From Bacteroidales bacterium (lineage in GTDB: Bacteria > Bacteroidota > Bacteroidia > Bacteroidales > FEN-979): 64,000 nt of DNA. Location: assembly GCA_030681475.1 (NCBI GenBank), contig JAUXWT010000096.1, positions 1 through 64,000 on the forward strand. The letters are read 5' to 3'. Of the stretch, positions 12,845-54,347 are shown in pieces. Made by a program: the position numbers and the translations under genes. Position 1 is the stretch's first letter; each line of letters opens with the position of its first letter. The notes beneath the pieces were generated by a model. That model was not told the origin of the DNA, made no database searches, and saw nothing but the letters and a program-made list of their open reading frames with translations.

Positions 12845-15136
12845 ATGATGCGAATCCCCCGGTCAACTGTCATATTTTTTTTAAATAATTTGCTGATCGT
12901 CAGTTTCTTTGGCATTTTCAGTTCAGGTCAGGCACAGTTTTCACAACCATCCGGCATTTCTTTAAAATTTCCATGGGCCGGGGGGATGAATTCATGCCAG
13001 TTTTGTTCGATCGATCTAAACCTCGACGGGATCAACGACCTGCTTGTCTTCGACCGGCATGGCAACCGCAAGGTGACCTTTGTCAACCATGGAACCCCGA
13101 ACAAAGTTGATTTTTCCTTTGCACCTGCCTATACGCTCCTTCTTCCCGACATGCACGATTGGGTGATCACGGTCGATTACAACTGCGACGGGAAAATGGA
13201 TATTTTCACTTATGGCATGGGTGGCGTACGCGTCTTTAAGAACGTTTCTGATACCGCCTTGAAATTCAAACTAATAACAGACCTGTTGGAGTCGTATTAT
13301 TATATTGGCAAAGTAGGCATCCTGGTAACCTATGTTGACTATCCTGCGCTGGCAGATATTGATAATGACGGGGATATTGACATGCTCACATTTTTTGGTT
13401 TGGGATCGTATGTTGAATATCACAAAAACCTGTCGATGGAGAAATATGGCCATTGCGACAGCCTGGATTTCATCCTGGCCGATCCCTGCTGGGGAAAGTT
13501 TAAAGAGAGTGAAGGAGGAAACAGAATTACTTTAAACGCAGGTTGCCCGTTTAATGATCACGAATTTCGGGTCACGTGTCACGCGTCACCCGTCACGCGT
13601 CACCCGTCACGCGTCACGAACTCCCGCCACACCGGATCTACGTTGCTGGCCACGGATCTTAACAACGACGGGCTTAAAGATTTGATCATCGGAGATGTTG
13701 ATTACCCTGGCCTTGGTGCGCTGTTCAATGGCGGCACCCACGATTCGGCTTTTATGATATCCCAGGATACCGCCTTTCCGTCAACATCACGGCCGGTGCA
13801 TCTTTTCTCATTCCCGACAGCTTCATGTGTCGATATCGACAATGACGGACGCAACGACCTGGTGGTCTCTCCATTTGATCCGGCCCTTAGTACCTCCGAA
13901 AATTACAACAGTGTGTGGTTTTATAAAAACAACGGGTCGAATACCCTTCCTCAATATGAATTTCAGTCGGAACAACTGCTTCGTGACGACATGCTGGATT
14001 TTGGATCTGCCTCACATCCTGTCCTGTATGATTTCGACATGGATGGCCTGCCGGATCTCTTTGTCGGCAATTTCGGATTCTACGACTCTTCCTATTATAA
14101 AGAAGCGGTTCTATATTCGGTTTATATTTCAAAACTTGCTTTTTATAGAAATACAGGAACCACCACTGTTCCTGTTTTCAACTTTGTAACCGATGATCTT
14201 GCCGGCATTTCCGGGATGAAGATGCTAGGCGCTTATCCGGCCTTGGGTGATCTGAACGGAGATGGCCGCACCGACCTTCTCGTTGGGAGCAGTGACGGAA
14301 GTCTGATCCTGTTCATCAATGCCGGCAGCAGTTCTGATATCCCGGTTTTTGAAACACCCATATTGAAATGGCAGGGGATCGATGTTGGCGATTACAGCAC
14401 GCCCCAACTGTTCGATCTCGATAAAGACAACATTCCCGACCTGATCATCGGTGAGCAAAACGGAAACATCAACTATTATAAAAATACGGGAACTGAAGTG
14501 AACCCGCTGTTTAAGTTCATTACTGACAGTCTCGGCAAGGTGAATGTCACCAATTACAATTTATCTTACAAGGGATTCAGCACACCCTGCTTTTCGAGGC
14601 GAACGGATGGCACAACGTTCCTGATCACCGGTTCGGATGAAGGACGAATTCATCTTTTCGGGAATATTGATCAAAACCTGAACGGAAAATTCACAGAGTC
14701 CCAGGGGTTGTACAATTGGCTCTCGTCCACACCGAATGACACGCTTTTCGGTTGGCAGACCTCCCCTGCCGTTGGTCAATTAACCGATCCTGAAGGTTTT
14801 GACCTGATCACCGGGAACTTTGCCGGAGGATTAAATTATATTACCAAACGAAACCCCGCGGTGATCATCCCGGGCATTTATGAAGTCAATTCATTGCCGC
14901 AAAGTTCATTAAAGGTTTATCCCAACCCGGCAGATCATACCGTAACTGTTGAACTCACCGGATCCCCTGTTCACGCCCGCCGATCCACGATCATGGTCTT
15001 CAATATCTTTGGCAGGCAAATCCTTGATCTCCCATTCAGCGGATCAATAACCATCCCGGTCACAGAACTCCCGGCAGGGATCTATTTTATCCGCATCGGG
15101 GATGTCACCGCCAAAATGATCATTCTGCATCCGTGA
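12845..15136 (+). CDS. FG-GAP/VCBS-repeat surface protein with T9SS sorting domain
   Basis: 763 residues. The N-terminus has a signal peptide (hydrophobic stretch VIFFLNNLLIVSFFGIF, then SGQAQ). The body repeats D.N.DG..D motifs typical of calcium-binding FG-GAP/VCBS beta-propeller blades, for example DLNLDGINDLLVFD, DIDNDGDIDML, DLNNDGLKDLIIGD, DFDMDGLPDLFVG, DLNGDGRTDLLVG and DLDKDNIPDLIIGE. The last ~80 residues (LKVYPNPADHTVTVE, then LPAGIYFIRIGD) are a type A T9SS sorting domain, so it is probably secreted to the cell surface. Residues about 243-258 (TCHASPVTRHPSRVT) are written by a GTCACGC/GTCACCC heptamer array and look like an insertion between blades. A second ATG three bases downstream is an equally good start. 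Confidence 0.9.
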   Translation: MMRIPRSTVIFFLNNLLIVSFFGIFSSGQAQFSQPSGISLKFPWAGGMNSCQFCSIDLNLDGINDLLVFDRHGNRKVTFVNHGTPNKVDFSFAPAYTLLLPDMHDWVITVDYNCDGKMDIFTYGMGGVRVFKNVSDTALKFKLITDLLESYYYIGKVGILVTYVDYPALADIDNDGDIDMLTFFGLGSYVEYHKNLSMEKYGHCDSLDFILADPCWGKFKESEGGNRITLNAGCPFNDHEFRVTCHASPVTRHPSRVTNSRHTGSTLLATDLNNDGLKDLIIGDVDYPGLGALFNGGTHDSAFMISQDTAFPSTSRPVHLFSFPTASCVDIDNDGRNDLVVSPFDPALSTSENYNSVWFYKNNGSNTLPQYEFQSEQLLRDDMLDFGSASHPVLYDFDMDGLPDLFVGNFGFYDSSYYKEAVLYSVYISKLAFYRNTGTTTVPVFNFVTDDLAGISGMKMLGAYPALGDLNGDGRTDLLVGSSDGSLILFINAGSSSDIPVFETPILKWQGIDVGDYSTPQLFDLDKDNIPDLIIGEQNGNINYYKNTGTEVNPLFKFITDSLGKVNVTNYNLSYKGFSTPCFSRRTDGTTFLITGSDEGRIHLFGNIDQNLNGKFTESQGLYNWLSSTPNDTLFGWQTSPAVGQLTDPEGFDLITGNFAGGLNYITKRNPAVIIPGIYEVNSLPQSSLKVYPNPADHTVTVELTGSPVHARRSTIMVFNIFGRQILDLPFSGSITIPVTELPAGIYFIRIGDVTAKMIILHP
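13571..13618 (+). repeat. 7-bp tandem array (GTCACGC/GTCACCC) inside a coding region
   Basis: Near-perfect heptamers alternate as GTCACGC and GTCACCC within the FG-GAP protein gene, read in frame without a stop. The encoded segment is rich in His, Arg, Thr and Val and does not resemble the blade motifs on either side. Confidence 0.9.
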
Positions 15137-22509: not shown

Positions 22510-23058
22510 ATGACCTTCGAAGCATTGGCAAAACAGGGACAAGAAACGGTGTATCAATCGCTGGCAGCCTCCATCGGCCCCAGGATACGCGATATCAGGA
22601 AAGAGTCAATCAAAGAGAGCTTTAATGGTTTTCAACAGGTTGATCATCGTCTTGAAACCGTTGTTATCATCAAAGACATGGAATTTATCAACGATTCCAA
22701 ATCCTCAACTTTGAATTCAACCTGGTACGCCCTCGAAAATACGTCAAGGCCGATCATATGGATCGTGGGAGGTGTCGAAAGTGGCAACGATTACGCAATT
22801 TTACGCCACCTTGTACGAACCAAGGTGAAAGGGATCATTTGCCTTGGAACCGGGACCAGCCGCATTCATGAAGCATTTGACGATATTGACATCCCGATCA
22901 CCAATGCTTTGACAATGGACGAAGCAGTTCAGAATGCATATTATATGGGGAACAGCGGGGATGCAATCCTTCTTTCGCCTGCATGCCCCTCCTTCGATCT
23001 TTTTAAGGACTATGAAGCGCGCGGCAATGCCTTCCGCAAAGCTGTAAAAAATTTATAA
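22510..23058 (+). CDS. murD: MurD C-terminal domain only (N-terminal and ATP-binding domains missing)
   Basis: 182 residues, where MurD normally has ~440-450. From residue 1 the sequence matches the end of the central domain (family: LALQGKHN.YNSLAA; here LAKQGQETVYQSLAAS). It then continues through the complete C-terminal ligase domain (VDHRLETV, INDSKSSTLNSTWYAL, WIVGGVESGNDY, LLSPACPSFDLFKDYEARG). The UDP-binding domain and the ATP loop GTNGKT are absent, and the conserved HN before the C-terminal domain is replaced by ET. It cannot be an active D-glutamate ligase on its own. The frame has its own ATG five bases after the mraY stop, so the operon looks undisturbed. It is a real deletion with MurD supplied elsewhere, or an assembly join. 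Confidence 0.9.
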   Translation: MTFEALAKQGQETVYQSLAASIGPRIRDIRKESIKESFNGFQQVDHRLETVVIIKDMEFINDSKSSTLNSTWYALENTSRPIIWIVGGVESGNDYAILRHLVRTKVKGIICLGTGTSRIHEAFDDIDIPITNALTMDEAVQNAYYMGNSGDAILLSPACPSFDLFKDYEARGNAFRKAVKNL

Positions 23059-23070
23059 TACCGATTTACC

Positions 23071-24282
23071 ATGTTAAAAGTTGCAAAAGATATCAAGGGA
23101 GATAAAGTGATCTGGATCGTTGTGGTCATCCTTTGCATTTTTTCACTGCTTGCCGTTTACAGCTCAACAGGGACCCTTGCTAATAAAAAACAACATGGCA
23201 ATACCGAGTATTACCTCTTCAAACATTTTATGATCCTGGCTTTTGGTCTCGGATTGATGTACATAACGCACCTTGTCAAATATACCTATTATTCGCGTAT
23301 TTCTCAGATCGGGCTTTTCCTGACTTTACCACTGCTGCTTACAACATTGATTTCGGGGACAAACATCAATGATGCCAACCGTTGGCTTACCGTTCCCATC
23401 GTGAATCTGACCTTTCAGAGTTCGGATGTGGCCAAACTGTTTCTCATCATGTACCTTGCCCGCGTGTTAAGCAAGAAGCAGGAGCTGGTTCAGGATTTTC
23501 GCAAAGGCTTCCTTCCGGTGATCATCCCGGTAATTATCGTCACCATTCTGATCCTGCCGGCAAACTTTTCCACCGCCGCTATTTTATTCGTCACCTGCAT
23601 TGTATTGATGTTCATTGGAAGGATTAGCCTTAAGTACATGCTTTCGCTGGCAGTACTTGGGACTGTTGGCATTGTGATGATTTTTATGTTGTCAAAAACA
23701 TTTCCCGAATTGTTCCCGCGTGGAACGACCTGGGTTGCCCGCATCGATCATTTTATCAATAACAAGGAGGCGGATACCGATGCCACTTACCAGGTTGACC
23801 AGGCCAAGATCGCCATTGTTCAGGGCGGGATTATGGGCAAATCGCCCGGTAAAAGCACCCAACGCAATTTTCTGCCCCATCCCTATTCCGATTTCATTTT
23901 TGCCATCATCATCGAAGAGTACGGACTGATTGGCGGCGCCTTTCTTTTGCTGCTTTACCTGATTTTGTTTTTCAGGGTAATAAGAATTGCAACACGAAGC
24001 CAGGGGAATTTCGGTTCATTGCTGAGCATCGGGATTGGTTTCAGCCTGGTCTTCCAGGCGCTGATCAACATGGCAGTTGCTGTAAACCTGTTCCCGGTTA
24101 CCGGTCAAACACTTCCCCTGGTGAGCATGGGTGGGACTTCGATATGGTTTACCAGTATTTCACTCGGTATTGTTTTGAGCGTCAGTCGTACTGCAGATAT
24201 CGAAACCAAAAATGGAACTGAGGTTGAAATACTTCAGGAGTCATCCCGTAGTAAAAACTCCCAAACACTTCAAACCGCATGA
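23071..24282 (+). CDS. ftsW: FtsW, septal peptidoglycan glycosyltransferase
   Basis: 403 residues of the SEDS family, with about ten membrane helices. Visible signatures are WIVVVILCIFSLLAVYSSTG at the N-terminus, the NDANRWLTVP loop, QSSDVAKLFLIMYLAR, and the C-terminal TGQTLPLVSMGGTS. The large extracytoplasmic loop (HFINNKEADTDATYQVDQAK) matches FtsW. It polymerises lipid II together with the FtsI transpeptidase encoded upstream. The stop overlaps the next start (ATGA). Confidence 0.96.
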   Translation: MLKVAKDIKGDKVIWIVVVILCIFSLLAVYSSTGTLANKKQHGNTEYYLFKHFMILAFGLGLMYITHLVKYTYYSRISQIGLFLTLPLLLTTLISGTNINDANRWLTVPIVNLTFQSSDVAKLFLIMYLARVLSKKQELVQDFRKGFLPVIIPVIIVTILILPANFSTAAILFVTCIVLMFIGRISLKYMLSLAVLGTVGIVMIFMLSKTFPELFPRGTTWVARIDHFINNKEADTDATYQVDQAKIAIVQGGIMGKSPGKSTQRNFLPHPYSDFIFAIIIEEYGLIGGAFLLLLYLILFFRVIRIATRSQGNFGSLLSIGIGFSLVFQALINMAVAVNLFPVTGQTLPLVSMGGTSIWFTSISLGIVLSVSRTADIETKNGTEVEILQESSRSKNSQTLQTA

Positions 24283-26810
24283 TCCGGGTCATTATCAGCG
24301 GCGGGGGCACCGGCGGTCATATATTCCCGGCAATCGCCATTGCCGATGCCCTGAAGGCAAGAGTCCGCGATATCGATATCCTTTTCATCGGCGCCAAAGG
24401 GCGGATGGAGATGGAAAAGGTACCAGCCGCGGGATATCCGATTGAAGGGCTTGTGATAAGTGGTTTCCAGCGGAGGCTGACCTGGAAAAACCTCACATTC
24501 CCGTATAAACTCACCGGCAGCATACTCAAGGCGCGTTCAATCATCTCGAAGTTTAAACCCGATGTGGTGATCGGTGTGGGTGGATATGCAAGCGGTCCAA
24601 CCTTGCTCATGGCCGTCTCGAAAAAGATCCCATCGCTTATCCAGGAACAAAACTCCTATCCCGGGGTAACGAACAGACTGCTAGGCGGCAAAGTATTGAA
24701 AATATGCGTGGCTTATGAAGGAATGAATAAATACTTCCCGGAAAATAAAATTGTGTTTACCGGTAATCCTGTTAGACAGGATGTGGTGAAAATTTCCGGA
24801 AAGAGAGATGAGGCGATGCAATATTTTGGACTTGCCCCGGAACGAAAAACAGTGCTTGTTGTAGGAGGCAGCCTTGGGGCAGGTACAATCAACCAGGCCA
24901 TGATGAAATTTGCCGGTGAACATTCAGTTGACCAAAGCATCCAGGCGCTGTGGCAGACCGGAAAATTCTATTACGAAAATATTGAAACTGAAATTGGAAA
25001 TCTGAAATCTGAAATCAGTAAGATAATCATCGTTCCCTTTATCGAACGGATGGACCTTGCCTATGCCGCGGCCGACATCATTGTGTCCCGGGCAGGCGCC
25101 ATCGCCATTTCTGAACTTTGTGTAGTTGGTAAACCGGTCATCCTTGTTCCTTCTCCCAATGTTTCGGAGGACCACCAAACGAAAAATGCCCGTGCCCTTG
25201 AATCCCGCAAGGCTGCAATTCTGATCCCCGATGCCGAAGCCGTAAGCAGACTGGGAAAGACGATCATAGAAACGCTTGGAAATGAAAGCCTTCGATCGGA
25301 CATGAGAAAGAACATCCTGGCGCTTGGAATTACCGATGCCGCGGACAAAATAGCAGGGGTAGCGTTTTCGCTCGCAGGGTTCGGTTCCCAAATCGTAAAT
25401 CGCAAATCTGAATTCGTCAATCCCAAATCGGTCTATTTTATCGGTATCGGAGGAATCGGCATGAGCGCCCTGGCAAGATATTTTATATCGCAGGGGGCTG
25501 CGGTTTCGGGCTATGATAAAACACCTACAGTCCTTACCCGCCAATTGATCAGCGAAGGAATGCACATCCACTTTGATGAGGATGTCGGCTTATTGCCTTC
25601 TGATCCTGAACTTGTTATTTTCACCTCGGCTGTTCCGGAAGACCATAAAGAATTACAATATTTCAGGAAACATGGTACGCCATTGAAAAAGCGCGCTGAA
25701 GCGCTTGGACTGATTGCAAGGCATCACAAAACAATTGCTGTTGGAGGCACTCATGGAAAAACCACCACCTCCACCATGATCGCTCACATGCTTCGAACTG
25801 CCGGAGTTGAAACCATGGCATTTCTTGGCGGGATCTCAACGAATTATGGAACAAATTTCCTGAAGGGATCCGTGAGTGACGAAGCTGCAGGATTACAAGG
25901 AACCAACGAAGGATCCTTCTGCGTTGTTGAGGCAGATGAATATGACAAATCATTCCTGCAACTCGAGCCATATATCGCGATCATCACCGCTGCAGATGCC
26001 GATCATTTAGATATTTACGGCAGCGATGGGGAGATGAAAAAAACCTACGCTGACTTCACAGCGAAAATTGTCAGTGGCGGTTCCCTGATCATGAAAACCG
26101 GAACCATGATCACTCCATTGAATACTGACAATTACAGCCTGTATCAATACGCATTGTCCCCAGATGCAGCCTTTTACGCGAAAAATATTCATATCGTTGA
26201 CGGATTATTTCATTTTGATTTTGTAAACCCGGATGGTATAGTTAACGGGCTCGTCCTTGGTATCCCCGGGCGGTTCAACCTCGAAAACGCCATTGCTGCC
26301 CTTTCGGTCGGATATCTTCTTGGTCTTGATTTCCAGCTTGTTAAAAACTCGCTCCTGACTTACCGGGGCGTACAACGCCGTTTCGAGTTCAGGATCCGCC
26401 GCGCCGATTTGGTTTACATCGACGATTACGCACATCATCCGGAAGAACTCAGGGCGTGCATCAGCGCTGTCCGTGAATTGTACCCGGAGAAAAAAATCAC
26501 AGGAGTGTTCCAACCACACCTCTTTTCACGGACCCGCGACCTCGTTGACGACTTTGCCAGGAGTCTTGAACTGCTTGACGAATTACTTTTGCTCGACATT
26601 TATCCTGCCCGGGAAAAACCAATTCCCGGAGTTACATCAAAACTGTTGTTCGACCGGGTCAATCTGCATAGCAAATTAATGGTCAGAAAAGAAGACCTTC
26701 TCCGGGAGATCCGGGATTGCCAATGCGAAGTCCTGATAACCATGGGTGCCGGGGATATCGACCTGTTTGTTGAACCAATCACTGATTTATTCTCAGAATC
26801 AAACGTTTAA
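24279..26810 (+). CDS. murG-murC: Fused MurG (lipid II GlcNAc transferase) and MurC (UDP-MurNAc:L-Ala ligase)
   Basis: 843 residues. Residues 1-~370 are MurG: GGGTGGHIFPAIAIADAL, VIGVGGYASGP, LIQEQNSYPGVTNRLL, VVGGSLGAGTIN and SRAGAIAISEL. Residues ~385-843 are MurC: FIGIGGIGMSALARYF, the ATP loop VGGTHGKTTTSTM, VVEADEYDKSFL and YIDDYAHHPEEL. The two are normally separate neighbouring genes. Here no stop separates them, and residues ~371-383 (SQIVNRKSEFVNPK) are written by a 7-bp tandem array at 25389-25430. A second heptamer run at 24984-25017 lies in a MurG loop. MurG would sit at the membrane and MurC acts on a cytoplasmic precursor, so both active sites could still work. Confidence 0.93.
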   Translation: MIRVIISGGGTGGHIFPAIAIADALKARVRDIDILFIGAKGRMEMEKVPAAGYPIEGLVISGFQRRLTWKNLTFPYKLTGSILKARSIISKFKPDVVIGVGGYASGPTLLMAVSKKIPSLIQEQNSYPGVTNRLLGGKVLKICVAYEGMNKYFPENKIVFTGNPVRQDVVKISGKRDEAMQYFGLAPERKTVLVVGGSLGAGTINQAMMKFAGEHSVDQSIQALWQTGKFYYENIETEIGNLKSEISKIIIVPFIERMDLAYAAADIIVSRAGAIAISELCVVGKPVILVPSPNVSEDHQTKNARALESRKAAILIPDAEAVSRLGKTIIETLGNESLRSDMRKNILALGITDAADKIAGVAFSLAGFGSQIVNRKSEFVNPKSVYFIGIGGIGMSALARYFISQGAAVSGYDKTPTVLTRQLISEGMHIHFDEDVGLLPSDPELVIFTSAVPEDHKELQYFRKHGTPLKKRAEALGLIARHHKTIAVGGTHGKTTTSTMIAHMLRTAGVETMAFLGGISTNYGTNFLKGSVSDEAAGLQGTNEGSFCVVEADEYDKSFLQLEPYIAIITAADADHLDIYGSDGEMKKTYADFTAKIVSGGSLIMKTGTMITPLNTDNYSLYQYALSPDAAFYAKNIHIVDGLFHFDFVNPDGIVNGLVLGIPGRFNLENAIAALSVGYLLGLDFQLVKNSLLTYRGVQRRFEFRIRRADLVYIDDYAHHPEELRACISAVRELYPEKKITGVFQPHLFSRTRDLVDDFARSLELLDELLLLDIYPAREKPIPGVTSKLLFDRVNLHSKLMVRKEDLLREIRDCQCEVLITMGAGDIDLFVEPITDLFSESNV
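24984..25017 (+). repeat. 7-bp repeat run (GAAATCT) inside the MurG domain
   Basis: About five GAAATCT-like units encode the segment around ETEIGNLKSEISK, between WQTGKFYYE and IIVPFIERMDLAYAAAD. The flanks are conserved in MurG; the repeat falls in a loop between them. Confidence 0.75.
25389..25430 (+). repeat. Six-unit 7-bp array forming the MurG-MurC linker
   Basis: CAAATCG, TAAATCG, CAAATCT, GAATTCG, TCAATCC, CAAATCG: six heptamers with no gap. They lie exactly where the murG stop, the intergenic bases and the murC start would be expected. Confidence 0.85.
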
Positions 26811-27613
26811 TGAGGAAATTTTTAAAAATATTGTTGATCGTTTTCTGGATACTCCTTGTGGCCGGAGCAGGAGTGCTGATTGGGTTTGTAGAGGTTAAAC
26901 ACTACAGTCATGCCTGTAAAAAGGTGGAGATCAGCATAAACTATGGGGCAGCCGATGTTTTGATCACAAAAAAGGTCGTTGACTCCATCCTGATGAAAAC
27001 TGCGGGAAGTCTCAAGGGTAAACCACTGGGCTATATCAATCTTGGATCCATTGAAAACGCACTCCGCAAGCAGCCATATGTGGCAAAAGTGGCAGTTTTT
27101 GAAAATAATGAAGGTACATTGTTCATCGAAATCCGACAACGTGAGCCATTGCTGCGTGTTATCAACCGGAAGTATGAGAGTTTTTATCTTGATGAGTCCG
27201 GCACACTCCTTCCCGTCAACCCGAATTTTTCAGCTCGCGTCCTGGTGGCCAATGGATTCATTGATGATTCGTATATAAAAAACCCTAACTATCAGGTCAA
27301 TATCCTCGCTTTATCCGACTCTGGTTTTTATGATTCCCTGTTGACCAACCTTTACAAATTAACCATGTACATAACGCATGATAAATTTCTGAAGGCCCAG
27401 ATCGCACAAATCTATGTGAATGAATCGAGGGAATTCGAACTCATTCCCAGTATCGGTAATCATGTGATACTGTTGGGCAAAGCAGAGGACCTTGATGATA
27501 AATTCAAACGTTTATATGCATTCTATAAATTTGGATTGAGTAAGATCGGATGGAATAAATACAATGTAATCAATATCAAATATAAGAATCAAGTGGTTTG
27601 TTCTAAAATTTAA
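26810..27613 (+). CDS. ftsQ: FtsQ-like divisome protein
   Basis: 267 residues. There is one N-terminal membrane helix (ILLIVFWILLVAGAGVLIGFV) and a periplasmic part. The latter begins with a POTRA-like segment (residues ~38-115, ending VAVFENNEGTLFIEIRQREP) and continues into the FtsQ beta domain (FYLDESGTLLPVNPNFSARV). Its place between murC and ftsA is the standard one. The start ATG overlaps the murG-murC stop (TAATG). It links FtsA-side proteins to the periplasmic FtsL/FtsI complex. Confidence 0.92.
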   Translation: MRKFLKILLIVFWILLVAGAGVLIGFVEVKHYSHACKKVEISINYGAADVLITKKVVDSILMKTAGSLKGKPLGYINLGSIENALRKQPYVAKVAVFENNEGTLFIEIRQREPLLRVINRKYESFYLDESGTLLPVNPNFSARVLVANGFIDDSYIKNPNYQVNILALSDSGFYDSLLTNLYKLTMYITHDKFLKAQIAQIYVNESREFELIPSIGNHVILLGKAEDLDDKFKRLYAFYKFGLSKIGWNKYNVINIKYKNQVVCSKI

Positions 27614-31114: not shown

Positions 31115-31124
31115 GAAAATTGTG

Positions 31125-31172
31125 GACAGGGGGACAGGGTGACAGGGTGACAGGGTAACAGGGGAACAGGGG
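31125..31172 (+). repeat. 8-bp tandem array (GACAGGGK) between convergent genes
   Basis: Six octamers: GACAGGGG, three GACAGGGT and two AACAGGGG. They fill the gap between yqeY and the convergent FAD-dependent reductase. The phrase is the same as in the array at 43027-43114. Confidence 0.88.
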
Positions 31173-43026: not shown

Positions 43027-43114
43027 ACAGGGGGACAGGGGGACAGGGGGACAGGGGGACAGGGGGACAGGGGGACAAGGGGACAAGGGGACAAGGGGAC
43101 GGGGGGACAGGCGG
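43027..43114 (+). repeat. 8-bp G-rich tandem array (ACAGGGGG)
   Basis: Eleven octamers: six ACAGGGGG, three ACAAGGGG and two diverged copies. The plus strand carries runs of four to six G separated by three or four bases, a strong G-quadruplex pattern. It sits between gldB and comM, both on the minus strand. The same phrase occurs at 31125-31172. Confidence 0.93.
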
Positions 43115-43155
43115 ACTGCAAACTGCTGACTGCCGACTGCTGACTGCTGACTGGA
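43114..43155 (+). repeat. 7-bp tandem array (GACTGCT) next to the G-rich array
   Basis: GACTGCA, AACTGCT, GACTGCC, GACTGCT, GACTGCT, GACTGGA: six heptamers directly abutting the octamer array and ending ten bases before the gldB stop codon. Confidence 0.9.
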
Positions 43156-45127: not shown

Positions 45128-46828
45128 ATGAGAATTGCCCTGGCTCAGTTGAATTATCATGTTGGCGATTTCGTGAACAATGTTTCGCGGATCACAGAAG
45201 CTATTGAGAAAGCCAAAGCACAACAGGCTGATCTGGTCATTTTTGCCGAACTTTCAATATGCGGCTACCCACCGCGGGATTTCCTTGAATTCGATGATTT
45301 TATACGGCGGTGCAACGAGGCTGTTGCCTCGATCGCCGGCAAATGCCAGGGTATCGCGGCCATCGTTGGCGCCCCTTCAAAAAATACCGCCCCAAAAGGA
45401 AAACCATTGTACAATACGGCTTATTTTCTGGCTGACGGGAAAATTCTTGCCAAAGTTCATAAAACGCTGCTTCCGAATTACGATGTGTTCGATGAATACA
45501 GGTATTTTGAACCGAACAGGCTTCCGTATATGGTTACAGAATACCAGGGATATCGCTTTGCAGTGACGATATGCGAAGACCTGTGGAATATTTCCGATGA
45601 TCCGCTTTATGTGCGCAACCCGATGGACGAACTGGCCAAACTGAACCCGGACTTCCTCATCAATATCGCGGCCTCGCCATTCAGTTATAATCAGGCTGAG
45701 ATCAGGCGTGAAGTCCTGTCACGGAATGCACGAACCTATTCCCTGCCGGCGGTTTATGTAAACCAGGTTGGCGGACAAACAGAACTTATTTTCGACGGAG
45801 GTTCGATGGTCGTTGATTCACAGGGAGAAGTAGTTGCGGCATTGAATGAATTTGAGGAAGATCTGCTTGTCTGGGAAATGCCGAATGCAAAATGCAAAAT
45901 GCAAAATGCAAAACCGGAGGTCACAGAGCCGGTAAATCATCAAATCTTCAAATCTTCAAATCATCAAATCTTCAAATCATCAAATCATCAAATTCCGTTG
46001 ATAAACTCCGCCCTGACCCTGGGAATTAAGGATTATTTCGGGAAAATGGGCTTTTCCAGGGCTGTCGTCGGGTTATCAGGTGGGATAGATTCAGCGGTCA
46101 CGCTGGTGTTGGCCGCGAATGCTCTTGGAAATGAGAATGTAAGGGCTGTTTTGCTGCCATCACAGTACTCCTCTGATCACAGCATTGCAGATGCAGTGTC
46201 GCTGGCCGGCAATCTTAATGTTCAATACGACATCATACCGATTGAGGATGCCTATCATTCAATCGGGAAAGCGCTTCAGCCACATTTTGCAGGATTGCCG
46301 TTCAACCTTGCCGAAGAGAACATCCAGGCCAGGATCCGTGCAGTCATTCTCATGGCAATTTCCAATAAATTCGGCCATATCCTGCTTAACACTTCCAATA
46401 AAAGTGAAGCGGCAGTTGGCTTCGGTACCCTCTATGGCGACATGTGTGGGGGATTATCCGTGCTTGGAGATGTATATAAAACACAGGTGTATGAGTTAGC
46501 GCGTTTCATTAACAAAGACAGGGAGATCATTCCCCTGAATTCGATTTTGAAACCGCCTTCTGCCGAATTGCGTCCCGACCAGAAAGATTCGGATTCGCTG
46601 CCTGACTATGAGATCCTCGACCAGGTGCTGTACCTGTATATTGAACAACGAAAAGGTCCGGATGATCTTATCGCGGCAGGTTTTGATGAAAGTGTGGTGC
46701 AAAGAGTACTTAAACTTGTCAATACCACCGAACACAAACGCCATCAAACCCCTCCTATTTTGCGGGTTTCGCCTAAGGCGTTCGGCATGGGGCGCCGGAT
46801 GCCCATTGTGGCGAAATATTTATCGTAA
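45128..46828 (+). CDS. nadE: NadE, glutamine-dependent NAD+ synthetase
   Basis: 566 residues. The N-terminal nitrilase-type glutaminase (~1-250) has the Glu-Lys-Cys triad in FAELSICGYPP, KTLLPNYDVFDEYRYF and VTICEDLW. The C-terminal synthetase (~295-566) has the PP-loop GLSGGIDSAVTLVLA, NTSNKSEAAVGFGTLYGDM and PSAELRPDQKDSDSLPDYE. It amidates nicotinate adenine dinucleotide using ammonia channelled from glutamine. Residues ~253-289 are written by two short tandem arrays (period 7, then period 8) and read NAKCKMQNAK and two NHQIFKSS units. They sit exactly in the interdomain linker. Confidence 0.95.
   Translation: MRIALAQLNYHVGDFVNNVSRITEAIEKAKAQQADLVIFAELSICGYPPRDFLEFDDFIRRCNEAVASIAGKCQGIAAIVGAPSKNTAPKGKPLYNTAYFLADGKILAKVHKTLLPNYDVFDEYRYFEPNRLPYMVTEYQGYRFAVTICEDLWNISDDPLYVRNPMDELAKLNPDFLINIAASPFSYNQAEIRREVLSRNARTYSLPAVYVNQVGGQTELIFDGGSMVVDSQGEVVAALNEFEEDLLVWEMPNAKCKMQNAKPEVTEPVNHQIFKSSNHQIFKSSNHQIPLINSALTLGIKDYFGKMGFSRAVVGLSGGIDSAVTLVLAANALGNENVRAVLLPSQYSSDHSIADAVSLAGNLNVQYDIIPIEDAYHSIGKALQPHFAGLPFNLAEENIQARIRAVILMAISNKFGHILLNTSNKSEAAVGFGTLYGDMCGGLSVLGDVYKTQVYELARFINKDREIIPLNSILKPPSAELRPDQKDSDSLPDYEILDQVLYLYIEQRKGPDDLIAAGFDESVVQRVLKLVNTTEHKRHQTPPILRVSPKAFGMGRRMPIVAKYLS
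45884..45994 (+). repeat. Heptamer and octamer arrays in the nadE interdomain linker
   Basis: Four AATGCAA heptamers (45884-45911) and seven CAAATCTT/CAAATCAT octamers (45941-45994), separated by about 29 bases, all in frame and without stops. The translation repeats every 7 or 8 residues accordingly. Confidence 0.93.
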
Positions 46829-53584: not shown

Positions 53585-54301
53585 ATGACCAAACTTAGTG
53601 TAAACATAAATAAAATTGCAACGCTTCGGAATGCACGCGGCGGCGATCTTCCGAATGTGATAAAAACTGCCATGGATTGTGAAAGGTTCGGGGCCCAGGG
53701 CATAACCGTTCATCCGCGCCCGGATGAACGACATATCCGGTATCGGGATGTTTTGGATCTGAAACCTTTGTTAACCACAGAGTTTAATATTGAAGGTTAT
53801 CCTTCACGCGAATTTATTGATCTTGTGACAGGTGTACGGCCTGCCCAGGTCACTTTGGTCCCTGATCCGCCCGGGGTTTTGACCTCTAACGCAGGATGGG
53901 ATACCATTCATCATGAATCCTTCCTGAAAGAGGTAATTGACGCGTTTCATAAGCACGGGATACGAACTTCCATTTTCATTGAAGCAGATCCGGCCATGAT
54001 CAGGCAGGCCATCAAAACCGGTACCGATCGCATTGAACTCTATACCGAATCATATGCAAAGAATTTCCATTCAGGGCGTGAAGAGGCGATCAAACCTTTT
54101 ATTGATGCAGCAAACGCTGCAATTGAATCAGGACTTGGGATCAACGCCGGTCATGATCTGAATCTGGAGAACCTTAAATATTTTGCGGCTCAGATTCCGG
54201 GATTACTTGAAGTGTCGATTGGCCATGCATTAATCTGTGACGCGCTTTATTATGGGCTGGAGAATACCATCCAGCTTTATTTGAGACAACTCAGAACCTG
54301 A
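53585..54301 (+). CDS. pdxJ: PdxJ, pyridoxine 5'-phosphate synthase
   Basis: 238 residues, full length. It starts [41 protein letters not shown] carries the phosphate and substrate contacts. Later blocks are [39 protein letters not shown] and [13 protein letters not shown]. It condenses 1-deoxyxylulose 5-phosphate with 3-amino-2-oxopropyl phosphate. A TAGCTTTG -7 box lies at 53561-53568 without a clear -33 element. Confidence 0.97.
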
Positions 54302-54305
54302 AAAT

Positions 54306-54347
54306 GCAAATGGCAAAGTGCAAGGCGCAAATGGCAAAGTGCAAAAA
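54306..54347 (+). repeat. 7-bp array (GCAAATG/GCAAAGT) between pdxJ and the dipeptidase
   Basis: GCAAATG, GCAAAGT, GCAAGGC, GCAAATG, GCAAAGT, GCAAAAA: six heptamers, with the first two repeated after 21 bases. It fills most of the gap between the two genes. Confidence 0.88.

Follow-up and report, generated by a model that had tools for sequence, protein, structure and literature searches.

A fused murG-murC gene in Bacteroidales with a joint probably rewritten by seven-base repeats

MurG and MurC are encoded in one open reading frame

The window, by which we mean the whole 64,000-nucleotide stretch of Bacteroidales DNA that was analyzed, carries a dcw cluster in which nucleotides 24279-26810 of the plus strand form a single open frame of 843 amino acids plus a stop codon. 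This murG-murC fused gene lies between ftsW and an ftsQ-like gene (Table 1). A preliminary description had read the frame as a complete MurG joined to a complete MurC, and both halves did exceed the curated cut-offs of their families. Residues 1-359 matched positions 5-350 of the 353 in TIGR01133 with 281 bits (cut-off 250.25), and residues 385-832 matched positions 2-446 of the 449 in TIGR01082 with 354.9 bits (cut-off 335.1). Five Pfam domains were found in the expected order.

Table 1. Features of the fused gene and its neighbors, with positions in the window
Feature	Position	Strand	Remarks
ftsW	23071..24282	+	4-base overlap with murG start
MurG part	24279..25355	+	residues 1-359; TIGR01133; Foldseek 1f0k, 3s2u
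Heptamer array, TGAAATC type, in MurG loop	24983..25016	+	in frame, residues about 236-246; purer than linker array
MurG-MurC linker	25356..25424	+	23 codons; no in-frame ATG/GTG/TTG; pLDDT <50 at residues 369-377
Degenerate six-unit heptamer array in linker	25389..25430	+	last unit runs into MurC's own AAATCGG (K-S-V)
MurC part	25425..26807	+	residues 383-843; TIGR01082; 2f00 alignment; Foldseek 2f00, 1p3d
Variable MurC loop	25869..25916	+	residues 531-546; pLDDT <50 at 536-542
ftsQ-like gene	26810..27613	+	ATG overlaps murC stop; named by position, no family match

The structure model of the protein had a mean pLDDT of 91.9 and a pTM of 0.62, and because of the latter value the mutual placing of the two enzymes is not readable from it. 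Each fold was nonetheless recovered by Foldseek, that of MurG against 3s2u (TMt 0.91) and 1f0k (TMt 0.80), and that of MurC against 2f00 and 1p3d. In an alignment with E. coli MurC (2f00), the motifs GTHGKTTT, EADEyD, and DDYaHHP were in register; we take the first to be the ATP-binding motif and the other two to be further active-site motifs of MurC. The frame is uninterrupted, no second copy of either enzyme was found, and where it could be computed the rough dN/dS was about 0.07 to 0.13 in both halves, with dS saturated. The sequence thus supports the view that murG-murC is a true single-copy bifunctional gene.

The linker holds a degenerate heptamer array

The linker contains six seven-base units, CAAATCG, TAAATCG, CAAATCT, GAATTCG, TCAATCC, and CAAATCG, placed where separate relatives have the murG stop, the gap, and the murC start. 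The preliminary description was right as to this position, but had called the array perfect, which must be rejected: neighboring units match at 6, 5, 4, 3, and 4 of 7 bases, and Tandem Repeats Finder gave 62% matches with a score of 35. The array is degenerate yet beyond chance. Its lag-7 identity of 0.52 over 49 nt is among the highest 0.44% of positions in the window, a level that ten separate regions reach, and of 5000 stretches of 110 nt simulated under a first-order Markov model, 0.2% attained it. That the array can be read as a linker was borne out, its 42 nucleotides being divisible by 3 and free of in-frame stops.

A second heptamer array, in a loop of the MurG part, had been overlooked. 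The length of this loop varies in the genus, and several relatives carry the same kind of heptapeptide there. The variable MurC loop is enlarged relative to the outgroups, and octamer arrays lie in it in two relatives, G013 and G015. When lag-7 and lag-8 arrays were scored over 18 genus loci (318 kb), 12 were found in murGC, from 9 genomes, and these fall on the MurG loop, the linker, and the MurC loop. None was found in rsmH, ftsI, murE, mraY, murD-C, ftsW, ftsQ, ftsA, or ftsZ of the same 18 loci, and 10 lay outside the eleven named genes. In the structure model, the linker and the MurC loop hold the sole segments of at least 3 residues under pLDDT 50, and the MurG loop block at residues 241-250 has a mean pLDDT of 76.

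Elsewhere in the window, a heptamer array of GTCACGC type (13571-13618) lies in frame inside a long open reading frame (12845-15136), and further 7- or 8-base tandem arrays of varied units are found at 31124-31172, 43027-43153, 45876-45993, and 54301-54345.

Most of the genus carries the fusion

A search of the genus at E<=1e-60 matched 18 of 19 genomes, G003 (81% complete) giving none. One frame was found at 15 of the 18 loci (G000, G001, G002, G004, G005, G007, and G010 to G018); among these the G001 frame runs off the contig and that of G004 begins inside MurG. The fused proteins are 57 to 74% identical to the window protein. In the same search each fused genome showed one murGC copy alone, the two matches in G001 and in G012 being pieces of one copy or a contig break. 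The genes are separate in G006, G008, and G009, where the frames differ and 43, 53, and 104 nt lie between the genes, and they are separate in all 12 family or order loci read.

Beyond the genus, at least six of 393 genomes of an order sample hold a stop-free single frame (the window, G092, G234, G238, G229, and G128); the count, made at E<=1e-200 from the two candidates that were scored in each genome, is for that reason a lower bound. Among 395 genomes of a phylum sample the window was the sole stop-free fusion at E<=1e-190, a sample that may miss distant fusions because here too two candidates were scored per genome. Three of the 80 named loci listed were fused: L098 (Bacteroidales MAG), L099 (Lewinellaceae SD302), and L105 (Bacteroidaceae MAG). 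From the order sample and the named loci, fusion of MurG to MurC is therefore rare and recurrent in Bacteroidota. In eight other Bacteroidota fusions, seven joints are short with no visible array, and L099 has a short repeat-like stretch.

Repeat units at the joint differ among species

Comparison of the junctions among relatives, as the preliminary description had suggested, showed the frame to be kept at 15 of the 18 genus loci and an array to be present in nine of the 15 fused joints and missing from six. Over the 110 nt that precede the core of MurC, lag-7 identity was 0.64 to 1.00 in the nine (G000, G018, G002, G017, G014, G007, G015, G001, and G012), 0.29 to 0.46 in the six (G016, G013, G011, G004, G010, and G005), and at most 0.57 in 15 separate junctions. 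At a threshold of 0.64, which is the window's own value and was set after looking, 9 of the 15 fused junctions qualify and none of the 15 separate ones, which is an association rather than a test of independent events because the genomes are related.

Arrays of the relatives at the same place are longer and purer than that of the window, being near pure in G012, G015, G001, and G002 and reaching about 10 units in the first three. The unit is AAATCCC in G012, GAAATCY in G015, GAAATGC in G001, and TTCAATA in G002. Trimers of TTCAATA matched 18 times in G002 and 11 times in all 18 other genomes combined, and trimers of AAATCCC matched 17 times in G012, 2 times in G015, and 0 times in the other 17, with 0 for both reversed controls; the two test units were picked from the linkers themselves. 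G002 and G012 each have, as linker unit, the repeat that recurs across their own genome. The same could not be said of a third unit, GGCGGACA, the repeat of the G013 MurC loop, which is present in 4 of 19 genomes and thus not confined to G013, its reversed control not being informative. Matches to (AAATCNN)4 range from 0 to 340 per genus genome and are near zero across most of the order sample; the window's genome has only 6, and its joint therefore seems to have been inherited and to have decayed since.

An in-frame ATG, GTG, or TTG occurs in the linker of nine of the 15 fused genomes, and in those nine MurC may also have an internal start. No such codon occurs in the linker of the other six, the window included; a separate MurC may arise from an unusual start or by cleavage of the linker.

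The branching history allows a gain and a return

A tree of nine other dcw proteins, with G001 left out and G004 29% filled, placed the separate pair G006 and G009 first, followed by the fused pair G010 and G005 with 85/91 support. The next branches were fused G007 together with separate G008 (100/100), and then 11 fused genomes. On this tree the minimum is two state changes, a single gain plus a reversion in G008. A tree of MurG plus MurC gave three, of which well-supported branches force only one. More than one gain of the fusion is possible, given that the G010/G005 linker has no visible likeness to the rest. A boundary, CCCAAATC (P-K-S), is common to G000, G018, G017, G012, and G015, across both main fused clades, and suggests that an array may already have stood at the joint in the ancestor of both.

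The G008 locus (L129) has separate murG and murC although it is the sister of fused G007. Its MurG tail is nearest that of separate G022 (16 of 21 residues, against 10 of 21 for G007) in a comparison in which G018 was mis-anchored and no tail was anchored for G000 or G009. Over longer parts of both proteins, G008 did not stand particularly close to G022. The separate genes of G008 may represent re-splitting, a short recombination tract, or the old state kept.

Origin of the fusion and of its joint

The reading that we consider probable, from comparison of the sequences, is that of a genuine bifunctional MurG-MurC whose joint is a tolerant site rewritten by the seven-base repeats of each species with the frame kept. 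In the ancestor of most of the genus, a short stop/start junction between murG and murC would have been exchanged for an in-frame stretch, giving one protein. The joint is a disordered tether, 19 to 47 codons long, from the end of MurG to the core of MurC. By the genetic code, an array of (AAATCNN)n type gives every frame the same seven-codon cycle, and where that cycle is free of stops the array is readable in any entry frame. The comparison suggests that the current seven-base family of a species is written into the joint again and again and then decays, and that selection there holds the reading frame only. Two further flexible loops of the protein probably undergo the same turnover. The likely benefit would be 1:1 synthesis, with the first Mur ligase (MurC) kept on the membrane-peripheral enzyme of the last cytoplasmic step (MurG). 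Direct channeling is unlikely because the MurC and MurG steps are not consecutive.

As to how the genes were first joined, an ordinary small indel or stop loss may have come first, with arrays colonizing the tolerant linker later, and to this order of events we give not quite an even chance. It accords with the array-free fused relatives, the deepest pair included, with array-free fusions elsewhere in the order, and with the presence of arrays in two loops unconnected with the joint, although today's absence of an array is weak evidence for it because arrays decay. The branch joining G010/G005 to the other fused genomes has, however, only 85/91 support, and with that support and a linker sharing no visible feature this pair may be a separate event.

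The reverse order, in which heptamers were inserted or expanded over the murG stop and the murC start, changing the frame, opening it, and so leaving a ready-made linker, is a possibility we hold more tentatively. Since the separate relatives have the genes in different frames, a join requires both stop loss and a net insertion or deletion whose length is not divisible by 3. Seven-base units can supply both. The AAATCSG of MurC itself can serve as a seed for the unit, and the CCCAAATC boundary recurs in both main fused clades. Yet the deepest fused pair, G010/G005, has no array, nor have G011, G004, G013, and G016, and seven of the eight other Bacteroidota fusions have short joints with none visible. 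The preliminary description had held that the repeat created the fusion; an array-derived linker and the association of 9 of 15 against 0 of 15 stand, but creation itself stays unproven, with six of 15 fused joints having no array.

A broader proposal, which we think unlikely, is that dispersed seven-base families act as genome-wide writers of linkers: a stop-free unit being readable in every frame, copies arriving at a gene joint or in a loop would serve as protein linkers at once. One such copy would have fused MurG to MurC in this genus, and three sites of the protein would still be overwritten by the repeat family of each species. A phase-variable switch, in which seven-base slippage would toggle MurC off and on, appears very improbable. 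The near-pure arrays of about 10 units (G012, G015, and G001) should slip and thereby shift the frame, but MurC is single-copy and taken as essential, six of 15 linkers have no ordinary start, and the window array is degenerate, as expected with selection against slippage. Each species is represented here by a single assembly. Finally, a frameshift or assembly artefact mimicking a fusion can be dismissed: all the genomes are draft assemblies, but the same frame recurs in 15 of them at 57 to 74% protein identity to the window, with purifying selection on both halves.

Relation to known fusions and repeat arrays

The preliminary description knew of no earlier MurG-MurC case, but such fusions are in print. 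A passage of Laddomada 2016 (PMC4929429) names a MurG-MurC fusion in the actinomycete C. gilvus, and MurG/MurC fusions are mentioned in part of Laddomada 2019 (PMC6420597). The C. gilvus protein is likewise MurG and MurC as one polypeptide from neighboring dcw genes, as far as that passage of PMC4929429 goes; the host here is instead a member of the Bacteroidota, and the protein may also differ in its linker, which is built from, or replaced by, species-specific short tandem repeats. According to sections of PMC6420597, MurE-MurF of Bordetella pertussis also unites two Mur enzymes in one polypeptide, but with consecutive steps, whereas MurG-MurC here combines the first ligase with the last cytoplasmic step; MurC-Ddl and MurB-MurC likewise involve MurC, with another partner. 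The same sections put forward MurG as a scaffold. The view that Mur enzymes act in complexes gains further cases here from the Bacteroidota, the first ligase being tied to a membrane-peripheral glycosyltransferase.

Heptanucleotide arrays are described for Beggiatoaceae, cyanobacteria, and some Bacteroidetes in part of MacGregor 2015 (PMC4679880), and resemble the present ones as seven-base tandem arrays scattered over the genome. Those arrays are, in that part of the work, mainly intergenic TAACTGA and give stops when translated, while the arrays here are stop-free and lie inside an enzyme gene and at its joint. A literature search on array-made fusions returned no title on the point. Such fusions are already known; for a joint rewritten by repeats, no description was found in the literature. 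Separate genes, an array-free fusion, a decayed array, and a fresh array form a series at one locus of central enzymes, along which it may be possible to trace how a protein linker arises from simple repeats and is then turned over.

A short MurD lies beside the fused gene

The MurD of the dcw cluster (22510-23058 in the window) consists of the C-terminal half only. Such a short dcw MurD was found in 39 of 43 family genomes searched, and a MurD over the family cut-off elsewhere in 40 of the 43. Its rough dN/dS of 0.05 to 0.09, with dS saturated, indicates purifying selection. Within the genus, its NDS and SPACxSFD motifs are retained but the K of GGxDK is lost, a position at which MurD2 copies have R. 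A full-length MurD2-like ligase (L152:5552-6994) lies away from the dcw cluster and adjoins a MurL homologue; in the window's genome the full-length copy comes directly after this homologue, which scored 278 bits (E 9e-83), under that model's cut-off of 700. This arrangement points to the MurD2/MurL route treated in part of PMC8788868. A literature search on truncated MurD returned no title on the point. Much more diverged dcw MurD proteins of 179-191 amino acids were seen at named Bacteroidales or Bacteroidetes loci (L039, L042, L066, L073, L093, L095, L096, L100, and L112).
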